Shown here: in pieces, positions 34,286 to 39,100 of the stretch | Layout of the letters: each line of letters opens with the position of its first letter | Position numbering within the stretch: position 1 is the first letter of the stretch | NCBI RefSeq assembly: GCF_025758695.1 | Contig: NZ_JANJQP010000001.1 | Span: 186,001 to 250,000, forward strand | Length of the DNA: 64,000 bases | Direction of reading: 5' to 3' | From: Oenococcus kitaharae | Lineage (GTDB): Bacteria; Bacillota; Bacilli; Lactobacillales; Lactobacillaceae | Notes under the pieces: generated by a model | What the model was told of the DNA's origin: nothing | What the model saw: the letters and a program-made list of their open reading frames with translations, nothing else | Database searches by the model: none | Position numbers and translations under genes: made by a program

Positions 34286-34337
34286 AAAAAAACAACTAAT
34301 TTCGTGCCGAACAAATGCACAAGAAAAGTTGTTTTAT
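34286..34337 (-). terminator. Intrinsic terminator in the argH leader (attenuator)
   Basis: In minus-strand sense, AAACAACT pairs with AGTTGTTT, with an inner pairing TTTC..GTGC / GCACGAAA, followed by a run of T. It lies in the leader, before argH, not after a gene. Its 5' arm begins at the stop codon of the small Arg-ending frame, so a ribosome paused at those Arg codons would cover the arm and prevent termination. Confidence 0.8.
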
Positions 34338-34390
34338 CGTCGGATAAGTTTAGAAGAGATAAATGAAGTTGTGAATGATTTCGCCTTCAT
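34334..34390 (-). CDS. Putative argH leader peptide ending in Arg-Arg-stop
   Basis: 18-codon frame: MKAKSFTTSFISSKLIRR then TAA. The last two codons before the stop are CGA CGA, and the stop lies in the 5' arm of the leader terminator. The promoter predicts a transcript start about 10 bases upstream of this ATG, so initiation would be near the 5' end; no Shine-Dalgarno is visible, the main weakness. Codon content, position and the overlapping terminator together match ribosome-mediated attenuation responsive to arginine. Inference only; no homologue is known to me. Confidence 0.6.
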   Translation of the reverse strand: MKAKSFTTSFISSKLIRR

Positions 34391-34407
34391 GATGTAACTT
34401 GAGTTTT

Positions 34408-34435
34408 AGTATACATGCTTTTCAGAAGAAAACAA
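34408..34435 (-). promoter_or_regulatory. Promoter of argH-argG-ABC operon
   Basis: On the minus strand, TTGTTT (34435-34430), a 16-base spacer and TATACT (34413-34408). No convincing ARG box (ArgR operator) was found around it. Confidence 0.65.
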
Positions 34436-34470
34436 TATTTTTTTAAAACTTTTTTCATTTTCTCGAAAAA

Positions 34471-37400
34471 TTAAATGATTTGACCGTTTCCAAACTTGTC
34501 GTCAAAATAATAAGTCTGTTGTGTAACAGGATCCGTCTGCGAACCGCCTTTTAGTTGGATACCATCTTGGCCAAAATATTGGACTTGACCATTGATATTC
34601 TGAAAACCAGTGACCGGCTGGCCGCTATCATCGGCATAATACCAATGAATTTTGTCTGGGGAGAAGTAATCATTTGTGACCATTGCACCATTCGTACCGT
34701 TGAAGTAGTGTTTTTCGCCGCTATTAGGATCCTGGGCAAATCCGTCTTTGATCTGAGTGAAGTCATCTCGAAAATAATTAGTGAGACCGTTGATAACCCG
34801 CATGCCGCGCACCGCCTCACCATTTTCATCCAGATAGATCCAATTACCATCAGATCGGCGCATGAAACGATTTGTGATCATTTGTCCGCTGATATCGTCA
34901 AAATACTGCAAATGGCCATTGATCGTTTGAAAACCAGTCACAATCTGCCCTTGGCTATCAGCGTAGTACCAAAGATGGCTATCGCCTTGATAACTGCCGG
35001 CCGTATTATCGTCAGGTGTGAAACTGCTGGAGGCACTCGTATAAATGAAATCGCCTTTAACTAAATCGCCGGTGAGGGCATTGAAGTAAAAACGCTGACC
35101 AGATTGGTTCGTGTAAAAGGCGTCTTTCATCTGCTGACCATGATCATCGAAGTAAAGCTGACGACCATTGATTGTTTGCAAACCGGTAACAGCCAACCCG
35201 TCAGCACCAAAATAATAGTAGCGGCCATTTTCGCTGCCTTTGAATTCGTTAACAGCCATATTGCCATTGCCGCTCTCAAAGTAACGCATCCGGCCGTCGC
35301 TGCCCAGAATAAAGGCATCTTTAGCCTCTACGCCGCTGGATTTGAAGAATTGCCAATGGCCATCAATTTGAGCCAATTGATTTGCCAGCATGATACCGTT
35401 CTCGTCAAAACGGAAACTATTGCCGTTTGTATCAGTCACATACTGATTAGCAACTTGTCGGCCTCTTTGATCGTAGTAATAGGTCTCGCCACGGTCATTT
35501 TGGACAAAGACATTTTGTGCTTCAACGCCGTTAGGAAAGAAAAGGTAGTGCTGGCCATTGATCGTTTGAGGCCCAGTCACCATATGGCCAGTGTTGTCAA
35601 AATAATAGTAGTTGCCGTCATCGCCTTGGACAAAAGCATTTGTGGCTTGATAACCACTGGTCGAGAAAAAGATAATGCCTTGATCATCTTGGGTAAAACC
35701 AGTTTCACCAGGCTGATTAGTCAATTGTTTAGGCAGAAAAGCTTCGTTTTCATCGTTTGAAACAACTTTAAAGTATTGATCTGTGCCTGAATCGCGCAGG
35801 ACGTAATAAGCACCGCGCCCCTGGATGTTGGAACCATTGAAGTATTTGGCCGACCATTCAGTAATTTTTTGACTAGGATCAATCGTTTGACCGGTTGAAA
35901 TTTGTGTTTTCGTAAACAAATCTGGATAAAGTTGCTGAAGTTTCTCCAGGAAAGCGCCGCCGAATTTTGTTTGATACTGCCCGCCCCCATTTGTATAAGC
36001 CAAGTAAAGATCGTTTTGCAAATCGGATCCAGCGATCGGCTGACCATAGGAGTCAGTTCGGTTGACTGTAATAATTTCTGGGTTTTGCAGATTATAAATT
36101 TGGTCGGGTACCCAATCGGCCATGACCTGGATGTTGTTGGCATGCAGGGCTTTGATAGCCGCTCTTAAGTCATCGACATCGCCGTATTTTGTCGGCGTAT
36201 CAAAGCCTAAATCATAGCGGTCGGTAAAGGCATAGCCGTTTTGAATGATTGAATCAAGAAAACTGCTGTCGCTGCTGGATCTGTACTGCGGTGCCAATTG
36301 GAAGCTGGTGATTCCCCAATCTTTAAACAGACCGGCGTTCTCGGTGATTTTCACGTTCGTAAAATTGTCGTGCTGTTCAGCGGTCGGGATCGACTGGAAA
36401 TTAGAAAAGCCTTCAAAAATCACGTTGCTGTCCAGTGCAGCGTTTGAATGATACACACTGCCATCAACACTAGCGGCCGAATCAGCTGTTGTTCTGGCAT
36501 CTTGATTGTCAGCAGCGCCGACAGGCACCCAAGCTGATAGGTATCCGGAAACTTCTGGATTCAAATAGCCGGCCAGTTCTGCTGCAGTAAAAGTCAAATC
36601 ACCATTTGCGTCTGTATATTTCACCGGTGCTTGAAGATCTGTATCAAAGTTCTCTAATCCAGACTCAGTAGTCAATAGTAGGGCGCGAAAAGCCTGATTT
36701 TTGTGGGCGGCACCCATGTGCAGGACAACCTGATCATTTTCAGCTAGTTTTAAATGAGAATTATTGCTGACGATCACGCCAATACCTTCTTGACGCGTTT
36801 GATTATCGCCTAAGTCGCTTGCCAGCATGGCATTTTGGCCAAAACGAACACTGGTCAGAATGTCGTTTTTATCAACGGCCATGCTTTGTCCACCGGTGGC
36901 ATATTTGACTCTGGCCTTTAAAAGGGTACTAATAGCATTAAAGTAAGGCGACTTGTTTGCCATGTAATCGCCATCGTCTGTGTACATATCACCGTAATAG
37001 ACACGCGGAACGGTATCTTTGTTGGTTAAAAGCATTGCATAGGCGCTGGGAATGTTATATTGTGTGTATTTTTTAACATCTGACTTCATGTCGGCGTTAT
37101 AGACTTCAAAAGCTGCCTTCAGCTGATCAGCTGTTGGAATCAAGCCGCTGCCGGAATTTGGATACAGGTCTGAAATAATTTGTGCAATGACTGTTTGGAC
37201 TTCCGAGTCGTGTGCACGGACAAAAGAATAGTTGGCAACGGCTTGATTGTCAGTCGAATCGTTTGCGCGATTGACTAAGTAGTAATCCATAAAACGCTGC
37301 ATTGTACCGCGGATGTTGTCCGGCTTTGTCAAAGACCAGATTAGCTGTGTGTGCATATAATCGTCCATGGTTAACTGCGGGTAGCCTTGGGCTTTCATAT

Positions 37401-38994
37401 ATTCGGGATCGTTGTGGCTCCAGTCCTCCAAAATAGATAGATGCTGATCAGAAGTAAGATCGTTTGAACCACTCTTAAAAGCATCTTTGAAATATGCAGC
37501 TGCAATCTGCAATAAATCAGCATCGACATTATCAACAGCATCAACACGGATGCCGTCAAAGTTAGCATCTGGATCATTGGCTGTGATTGATCCGAAGTTC
37601 ATGAGATAATAAAGCCAATTGAGTTGTTCGGCCTGGACAACAGGATTGGAATTATCGACATCGTTGGCTAGCAATAATTCAAAGCCGCCAAGGGACGCAT
37701 CCGTATTATATTCTGGCGTTCCAGTTTGATTTGTCGGTGTCCGATTTAGCAAACGGAAGTTGGAATTAGCATCTGGCGTTAATGGACTGTTAACGAAGGT
37801 GAGGGCGCCGCCTTGTAGATGGTCGCTGCCAGGATCTTCGCTCTCTTCATTCCAAGAAGGCTGCTGGTTGATAAAAGTCTGCAGCAGTGTTTTCAACCAA
37901 TCAGTTGAAGCTTGCTGACTGATTTTCTTTTCAATCGCACCTTGTACAGATTGAGCGGCGTGATTCAATAAAAGCTGGTCATCAGCAATTTTGAAATCCT
38001 GATCATTGGCAATAAAGCCCTGAGTTTTCATGTAATTCAGGTAGTTGACTTCTGTTTGTTTGTCGGGCCACCAAGTGGTCAGAATTGGGCGGAAGTCATC
38101 AGTACGCGAGGCGCGCCAGTCGGTGCCATTTTCAAGAATGTCGGCTGGCCGATACCAAGCTTCAGCGGTTAAATAACCGTTGATATTTGTGAAACTCTCG
38201 CTTTTTGTCGAATAAACGGCATTGTGAGCTGTAAAATCGTCATTTTGTGCTGTGAGCCCTTCTTTAATACTGGATGCATTTGTGTTGGTCAATGCACCGG
38301 TTGTTTTGTCAAAGTAGAGAACTTGGTTGTCAAAAACGCCGGAATAACCTTTTCTCATGTGGCCGTCCTGATCAAAGTAATAACTTTGGCCTTGAATTGT
38401 TTTCAGACCGGTTGCCATCTGACCCTTGTCATCAAAATAGAAAATGTTGCCTTGCTTATCTGTAGCATAGTTATTGACTGTTTCCTTGCCATCTGCTTCG
38501 AAGTGATGCAGGTCATTATTAATGATTTTAAAGCCTGTTACAGCATTGCCGCTTTGACTATCGAAATAATAGCTTGAGCCGTCCACTGTTTCAAAACTGC
38601 CTTTAATCTGAATGCCTTGTTCATCAAAGAACTGCAAACTGCCGTCAATGGTCTGCAGGCCTTTGACAAATTGGCCGTCGCTGCCCATGTAAAACCAGTT
38701 TCCCGCCTGTTGAACGTAGTGGGGTACGATTGCTGCTGGAGTTGGGCTGACAGTTTGAGAGATCTCGTCTGTTTCCGGCTGTTCTGCGCTTTGCGATGTC
38801 GGCTCGCTTTGATCAGCGGCCGCTGTCAAAGGAGCGACTGATTGCGCAGTTGTGTCTTCCTGATTCAAGTCGTCTGCCTGAACCGTGATAAGATTTGAGC
38901 CAGCAGCCATCATAAAAACGGTCGTGCCGGCTACAATCCAATTTTTTCCTGATTTATAGAGCTTTTTTCGATCTATTCTTGCCTTTCTTTCCAC
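34471..38994 (-). CDS. Dextransucrase (GH70 glucansucrase)
   Basis: Secreted enzyme that polymerises the glucose of sucrose into alpha-1,6-linked dextran. 1507 aa from GTG 38994, chosen because AGAGGAA (39008-39002) is a Shine-Dalgarno 7-8 bases upstream; an ATG at 39015 has none. The N terminus carries a KxYKxGKxW signal (KLYKSGKNW). Glucan-binding repeats with YYFD/G-x-x-TG units occupy about residues 95-240. The GH70 core has the nucleophile Asp485 ([12 protein letters not shown]), acid/base Glu523 ([11 protein letters not shown]) and transition-state Asp596 ([13 protein letters not shown]; the SEV triad is typical of dextran makers). A second part of the permuted barrel follows ([10 protein letters not shown]), then nine or more C-terminal glucan-binding repeats to the end. 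It stands alone, with its own leader. It resembles the known O. kitaharae dextransucrase from memory. Confidence 0.96.
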
Positions 38995-39008
38995 TATAAA
39001 ATTCCTCT

Positions 39009-39100
39009 TTTCCATTTATGGGCCGAATCAGCTTCAGCCGAGTCCCTTCATCTGGGCTTGAACCAGCAGGTTCCCATTTTTTGAACCACAAAGAGATGCA
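39009..39100 (-). other. Repeat-rich 5' region of the dextransucrase gene
   Basis: In minus-strand sense this region holds GGTTC / GAACC / GGTTC alternating complementary units, then CTGG-TTCAAGC-CCAG and CGGCT / AGCTG / GGCCC elements, able to form alternative stems. One stem mimics a tRNA T arm. No ORF is present. The 286 bases from 39016 to 39301 hold only this and the folD promoter. Confidence 0.4.

Follow-up and report, generated by a model that had tools for sequence, protein, structure and literature searches.

A conserved leader frame ending in CGA CGA beside a terminator: a candidate arginine attenuator before two arginine operons of Oenococcus

The argininosuccinate lyase gene argH of Oenococcus kitaharae is preceded by a short reading frame whose last codons, CGA CGA TAA, run into the 5' arm of a predicted intrinsic terminator, and the same arrangement stands before the argC operon. 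On comparative sequence grounds this leader probably acts as a ribosome-mediated transcription attenuator responding to the charging of arginine tRNA, and it would form a two-operon regulon standing in for the repressor ArgR. We analysed a window of 64,000 nucleotides (contig NZ_JANJQP010000001.1, positions 186,001 to 250,000; window coordinates are positions in this stretch) and a genus sample of seven Oenococcus genomes, five of them at least 90% complete and two 65-68% complete. The leader set comprises nine leaders, five before argH and four before argC, seven of which are distinct; they are related to each other and do not represent nine independent events. In the window the argH leader extends over about 142 nt of the minus strand, between a presumed glucansucrase-like gene (end 34471) and argH (start 34258), with the following features.

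34435-34430, minus strand: -35 box TTGTTT, weak (3/6 matches), with TTG kept across the aligned leaders
34413-34408, minus strand: -10 box TATACT with TG just 5' of it, 16 nt from the -35 box and alignable in relatives
about 34400, minus strand: predicted transcription start, first A of AAGTT, 7 nt past the -10 box
34390-34334, minus strand: leader peptide frame MKAKSFTTSFISSKLIRR-stop, ATG at 34390, 18 codons
34342-34337, minus strand: candidate regulatory codons CGA CGA, identical in 9/9 leaders (with TAA, 34342-34334)
34346-34335, minus strand: weak small stem UAUC/GAUA around the CGA codons, possibly a pause hairpin
34335-34289, minus strand: predicted intrinsic terminator hairpin, its 5' arm starting within the stop codon
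34292-34286, minus strand: terminator T run of 7 T (seven T in 9/9 leaders)
34366-34348, minus strand: stretch of the frame complementary to the argH ribosome-binding region (P 0.009 and 0.006 in the window)
34272-34268, minus strand: argH Shine-Dalgarno sequence AGGAG, from sequence reading
34258-32939, minus strand: argH, argininosuccinate lyase (TIGR00838, 511 bits), the putatively regulated gene
32809-31589, minus strand: argG, argininosuccinate synthase (NF001770 / TIGR00032)
31588-30911, minus strand: amino-acid ABC transporter permease (TIGR01726 domain above cut-off), probably in the same operon
30914-30114, minus strand: ABC transporter substrate-binding protein, nearest to the lysine/arginine/ornithine type (TIGR01096, below cut-off), probably in the same operon

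All elements that a preliminary description of this DNA had reported, a minus-strand promoter, an 18-codon frame, CGA CGA TAA, a stop within the 5' arm of the hairpin and argH behind it, are present, and the leader observation (frame, Arg-Arg end and terminator) is confirmed. The weaknesses conceded at the same time are also real: the predicted 5' leader of the frame measures about 10 nt in the window and carries no Shine-Dalgarno sequence. The AAGTT at the predicted start is kept in all five argH leaders. The window contains 718 ATG-initiated frames of 8-40 codons; five of them end in Arg-Arg, and the leader frame is the only one of these five with a T6 run within 60 nt. A simple scanner run on the window listed neither the promoter nor the terminator of the argH leader, owing to the weak -35 box and the 9-nt loop. 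It marked another promoter-like site on the minus strand within the frame (34375-34347, 9/12 matches), and a transcript starting there would not contain the leader frame; four promoter-like sites were found by the scanner versus 4.8 in shuffled sequences. The gene directly 5' of the argH leader (34471-39015, minus strand, 1514 aa), which we take to be a large glucansucrase-like gene, has no clear terminator, and the terminator of the argH leader may also end its transcript.

argH was found in five of the seven Oenococcus genomes, the two lacking it being those that are 65-68% complete, and a frame, CGA CGA TAA and an overlapping hairpin precede it in all five. The corresponding leader peptides are MKAKSFTTSFISSKLIRR in the window and in genome G001, MKSQILTSSSIHTNIARR in G003, MKTEIQTTLFVSSIARR in G004 and MKNEIQTTSFVSSIARR in O. 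oeni. Identity over the opening 600 nt of argH is 72-73% between the three main lineages (the window, G003, and G004 together with O. oeni), so the leader appears to be truly conserved and not to reflect recent copies, and since the sequence farther upstream differs among these three lineages, it seems to travel with argH. In O. oeni DSM 20252, argH lies in two frames through a frameshift split near codon 400 in this assembly, and its leader is intact (L005/L006/L038).

The same leader stands before argC in four of the seven genomes, with the peptides MTHLQATSSFHSFNIVRR (window's genome and G001), MNLSRPTSSLIFSNIARR (G003) and MTHLWLTNSLILSNIARR (G004). These copies came to light when the genomes were searched for CGACGATAA with a T run behind it; the pattern CGACGATAA-N20-45-TTTTTT gave 28 matches in the seven genomes versus 21 for a reversed control, so that it is by itself no proof, and each locus was assessed by inspection of its sequence. 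In the window's genome the order argC-argJ-argD-argF was assigned by NCBIfam families and continues, by reading and position, into carA, carB and argB; the operon was traced through carAB-argB in this genome only and not in the other three. Together with the argH operon, argCJDF-carAB-argB would place the entire arginine pathway of this genome in two operons. At the operon end, argB is followed by a frame (L216:5517-6501) that is presumably ammonium-transporter-like. In O. oeni a second copy was found neither by the pattern search nor by the covariance model described below, which is consistent with the missing arginine pathway reported for this species in the part of the source available to us (PMC3250461). 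The frame, the Arg codons and the terminator, on whose conservation in relatives the preliminary description had staked its interpretation, are kept at all five argH loci and at the four argC loci, and this conservation before argH and before a second operon appears to lie well beyond chance.

What varies within the leader and what stays is informative. Most residues change freely among the seven distinct leaders, the changes being mainly non-synonymous and falling on every codon position, and the frame is kept in 9/9 leaders with lengths of 54 or 57 nt only (17-18 codons). The flanks vary by non-multiples of three (predicted 5' leader 8-11 nt, stop-to-gene spacer 66-75 nt), and the other two reading frames contain stops in all seven distinct leaders. 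Apart from the start Met, only Thr7 and Arg-Arg are invariant among these seven; at the nucleotide level ATG, ACA at codon 7 (7/7), TCA at codon 9 (6/7) and CGA CGA TAA are kept, as is the start of the terminator within the stop codon. CGA fills all 14 terminal Arg positions of these leaders, and the neighbouring Ile and Ala codons vary synonymously while CGA CGA is constant. As far as alignments can tell, a fixed frame, length, CGA CGA TAA and terminator amid free residues is the signature of codon sensing, and neither a small functional protein nor an arrest peptide would readily produce such a pattern. The CGA constancy might partly come from RNA pairing, as the small stem, which takes the 5-bp form UAUCG/CGAUA in the other leaders, uses the same bases. 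No excess of third-position changes was found in the frame of the seven distinct leaders, so that standard coding statistics give translation no support and only frame, length and stop do. Codons 7-9 (ACA A.T TCA; alignment columns 29-38) form a stretch conserved at the nucleotide level within the otherwise free peptide, and in several leaders it complements the AUGAA of the start region.

Thermodynamic folding, which the preliminary description had proposed as a check, bears out the terminator: the window hairpin reaches -14.5 kcal/mol, with 0 of 200 shuffles as good (1 of 500 in a repeat), and a 155-nt stretch containing the whole leader folds at -37.6 versus a shuffle mean of -21.5 (0/200 as good). 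Across the nine leaders the predicted hairpins range from -10.6 to -16.8 kcal/mol, with at most 2 of 500 shuffles as good. If the leading edge of the ribosome is assumed to lie 13 nt downstream, 6 or 9 nt of the 5' arm lie under a ribosome that has CGA in its A site, and the remainder folds at -2.0 to -9.3 kcal/mol versus -10.6 to -16.8 for the full hairpin; the stem base beside the T run is lost, and an inner hairpin of up to -9.3 kcal/mol persists. A ribosome at the stop codon would cover 12 nt of the arm, more than at CGA, so repression would require fast release. The earlier contention that no antiterminator hairpin is needed is compatible with the geometry of masking, and no conserved alternative partner of the 5' arm was found: in seven leaders its upstream pairing has a mean probability of 0.02-0.52 with differing partners. 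The leader would therefore be attenuator-like in its action but not of the classical two-hairpin form known from trp and his. RNAalifold on the nine-leader alignment returned two weak stems (-2.27 kcal/mol in total) and did not recover the terminator, because MAFFT misaligned its loop; a structure supplied by hand gave 88.8% paired cells and two pairs changed on both sides, and owing to a register shift in three rows we relied on single-sequence folds.

We consider it quite unlikely that translational attenuation is the main switch, with the leader frame hiding the argH Shine-Dalgarno sequence, a ribosome opening it and the hairpin being a scaffold or a weak terminator. The window fold does contain a long stem of leader codons 9-14 with UUUAGGAGAAUAGAUAAA, the duplex between the leader frame and the argH ribosome-binding site beats shuffles in the window (P 0.009) and in G003 (P 0.015), and leader ribosomes are described as controlling downstream ribosome-binding sites in Salmonella orf34-speF and S. 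aureus rbfL in the available parts of the sources (PMC6386406, PMC13009471). However, the duplex is not significant in G004 (P 0.59) and in O. oeni argH (P 0.72), and it is less clear before argC (P 0.04-0.16 in distinct leaders). The consensus fold of the nine leaders lacks this stem and instead shows a weak pairing of the T run to the Shine-Dalgarno region, and seven T plus a hairpin in 9/9 leaders would not be needed by a scaffold. As a second level of control, the stem hiding the ribosome-binding site is suggestive only, and it is not universal.

SpeFL and TnaC are arrest peptides that stall at the stop codon with a small-molecule ligand, and an Arg-Arg nascent chain might bind arginine, ornithine or citrulline in the tunnel and stall in the same place. 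Such a reading, which we regard as very unlikely, would profit from the C-terminal I-A/V-R-R in 6/7 and Thr7 in 7/7 distinct leaders, and a ribosome held at UAA would mask the terminator too; but the argH leaders of the window and G001 end in L-I-R-R, most residues differ among the leaders, and a ligand-induced stall would turn the genes on at high arginine, the wrong way for biosynthesis, unless the ligand were a precursor. The frame could also be fortuitous, the hairpin being a terminator that is constitutive or controlled by a protein and the conserved letters serving as RNA signals. ACAA.TTCATT and GTACTCA are indeed conserved without an obvious coding reason, the third positions show no excess of changes and a promoter-like site lies within the frame. 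Yet the length changes by 3 nt only and the other frames are stopped, the position of the Arg codons is shared by the leaders of both arginine operons in species that have diverged, and no leader matches an Rfam family at the gathering score; we regard a chance frame as very unlikely.

The preliminary description had remarked that arginine genes in Firmicutes are normally under ArgR and had seen no ARG box. This remark gains weight from the genus sample: neither ArgR domain (PF01316, PF02863) was found in any of the seven Oenococcus genomes (five of them at least 90% complete), in searches that were positive in the controls B. subtilis and Lactococcus, and ArgR occurs in 102 of 151 genomes of the family. 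No ARG-box match with up to three mismatches was found at the promoter (34286-34471), and over the whole window 28 matches compare with 29.1 expected. ArgR control was rejected because neither the domains in the seven genomes nor a box at the promoter were found. The T-box model RF00230 has no match at the argH or argC loci; of the 14 T-box-like matches in the window's genome not one reaches the gathering score, and they all lie away from the arginine operons. A T-box or other Rfam family was discarded as the identity of the leader because none reaches the gathering score. A possible operator palindrome over the -10 box (CTTGT-N10-ACAAG, in the G004 argH leader) was dropped because it is not kept in the argC leaders. 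In genera without ArgR in the sampled genomes, T-boxes lie on the same strand upstream of argG at 9 of 20 loci, three of them within about 0.4 kb and six about 2.3 kb upstream, argG being their putative target. Three tandem T-boxes stand directly 5' of argG in two genomes of one genus of the family where ArgR was not found (L138:1886-2641, L139:1718-2474). A his operon was sought in the window's genome for comparison, and histidinol dehydrogenase was not found there.

In 52 long frames of the window CGA makes up 98 of 764 Arg codons, and none of their 40 Arg-Arg pairs is CGA CGA. The tRNA-Arg genes identified by ARAGORN in the window's genome have the anticodons ACG, TCT, CCG and CCT; a TCG anticodon was not found by ARAGORN on the 43 tRNA matches, minus one of 89 nt in the window, of this 98.5% complete genome. 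CGA is read in most bacteria by the ACG tRNA through inosine, according to the available part of PMC3711424, and judging from the tRNA genes CGA in the window's genome should be read by the single tRNA-Arg(ACG) via inosine wobble. In the Salmonella his leader, attenuation is reported to be lost most strongly, for every Arg codon but AGG, when that codon is paired with CGA (PMC4046918, as far as available). In Salmonella orf34 arginine control was kept with CGA CGA and with CGC CGC, as stated in the available part of PMC6386406, so that CGA need not be special. We infer that CGA may raise the sensitivity of the Oenococcus sensor.

The attenuation interpretation put forward in the preliminary description is supported by these comparisons, which add to it the copy at the argC operon, a possible stem at the ribosome-binding site and the apparent service of CGA by one wobble tRNA. 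Initiation at the predicted start site, translation of the frame, ribosome stalling, termination, the reading of CGA by inosine and the response to arginine are all inferred, and the mechanism would run as follows. RNA polymerase would begin some 10 nt 5' of the leader AUG, and translation would initiate on a nearly leaderless mRNA. With ample charged tRNA-Arg, CGA CGA would be read, the ribosome would be released at UAA, the hairpin would form and transcription would terminate. When charged tRNA-Arg is scarce, the ribosome would stall with CGA in the A site, its edge would lie over 6-9 nt of the 5' arm, the terminator would not form properly and read-through would allow transcription of argH-argG and the linked transporter genes. 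Through the copy at the argC operon the whole pathway would become one two-operon regulon in place of ArgR. A fuller reading, possible yet held tentatively, is that of a genus that has lost the repressor and in which one duplicated attenuator governs two operons, with nine biosynthetic genes and transporter genes, CGA CGA senses how far a single tRNA is charged and perhaps also whether it carries inosine, and control has two levels in some species; these levels would be terminator masking plus, in some species, release of a hidden ribosome-binding site.

A covariance model built from the nine leaders scores its own members at 112-142 bits, as it must, and the next match in the genus at 34.8 bits. 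Two matches of 34.8 bits stand before pyrB (recognised by eye) and are a different thing, seen in O. oeni and G004.

L162:1440-1670 (reverse strand) and L164:1440-1670: pyrB-upstream leader, with a promoter and a short frame MMLAHCKQTININSFRKTTSKSSLI-stop that extends across a T-run hairpin, just before pyrB-pyrC (recognised by eye)

No Rfam match was obtained at this leader, and its frame is possibly a translation-linked pyrimidine attenuator. Among 201 genomes of the family the model gave seven weak matches in six non-Oenococcus genomes (best 38.3 bits), and the two of these seven that were inspected are hairpins next to unrelated genes. Among 395 genomes of the order, searched with stricter filters, only the window's own genome passes 1e-4, the other leader-bearing Oenococcus evidently being unsampled there. 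No such leader was recognised by eye in about 310 nt upstream of argG at 25 other loci of the family, a few of whose operons start farther upstream, and a script applied to 20 loci of genera without ArgR returned 13 candidate frames in 12 loci, none of them ending in Arg-Arg.

Arginine biosynthesis serves in textbooks as the example of repressor control, exerted by ArgR, and attenuation by leader peptides is known from the pathways of other amino acids. The top-ranked matches of the open-access literature, to which the search was confined, included no attenuator that senses arginine and controls its biosynthesis; subscription papers lay outside the search. While the principle is known, what appears to be new, judged on sequence, is the sensing of arginine for its own pathway with no antiterminator, at two operons and in a genus where the repressor was not found. 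If true, a repressor regulon would have been fully swapped for an RNA-plus-ribosome switch of minimal design, two codons beside a terminator arm without an antiterminator, and two copies in several diverged species permit direct tests. In that case the slow decoding of CGA measured in Salmonella could also be part of a natural sensor (PMC4046918, as far as available).

The trp, his, leu, thr, phe and ilv leader peptides are ribosome-mediated attenuators of amino-acid operons, and in resistance-gene attenuators a stalled ribosome masks the terminator. Like the classical amino-acid systems, the Oenococcus leader combines a short promoter-proximal frame carrying codons for the product, an intrinsic terminator and a biosynthetic operon; it differs from them in the amino acid, arginine, in having two regulatory codons that are the last before the stop, in the position of the stop within the terminator arm, in that no conserved antiterminator hairpin was found, and in belonging to a genus where ArgR was not found. 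Salmonella orf34 (SpeFL) likewise senses arginine through two consecutive Arg codons upstream, but in the available part of the source it acts on the ornithine decarboxylase gene speF through Rho termination, opening of the ribosome-binding site and RNase G, with no intrinsic terminator (PMC6386406). S. aureus rbfL shares the short frame, rare Arg codons, pausing at arginine limitation and a Gram-positive host, whereas its pausing blocks the ribosome-binding site of a biofilm regulator, a translational effect of opposite sign, with no terminator described in the available part (PMC13009471), where a leader peptide is also mentioned for isoleucine biosynthesis in S. aureus. For mef/mel (PMC4335068) and the tylosin gene yxjB (PMC6851288) the portions available describe leader-peptide transcription attenuation in Gram-positives, but drugs and not amino-acid supply cause the stalling. 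The hisS/hisZ leaders of bacilli also place a leader peptide and a terminator in Firmicutes, in place of a T-box; they differ in concerning histidine and tRNA synthetase genes, and the main text of the source, as available, does not contain the word arginine (PMC2965389). ArgR/AhrC responds to the same arginine signal at the same genes, yet is a DNA-binding protein and was not found in Oenococcus, and the T-box leaders of arginine genes in related genera whose sampled genomes showed no ArgR sense the status of tRNA-Arg, but by an RNA that was not found at the Oenococcus arginine loci. Since such genera often have T-boxes before the same genes, the family appears to hold three answers to one control problem: ArgR, the T-box and the leader peptide.
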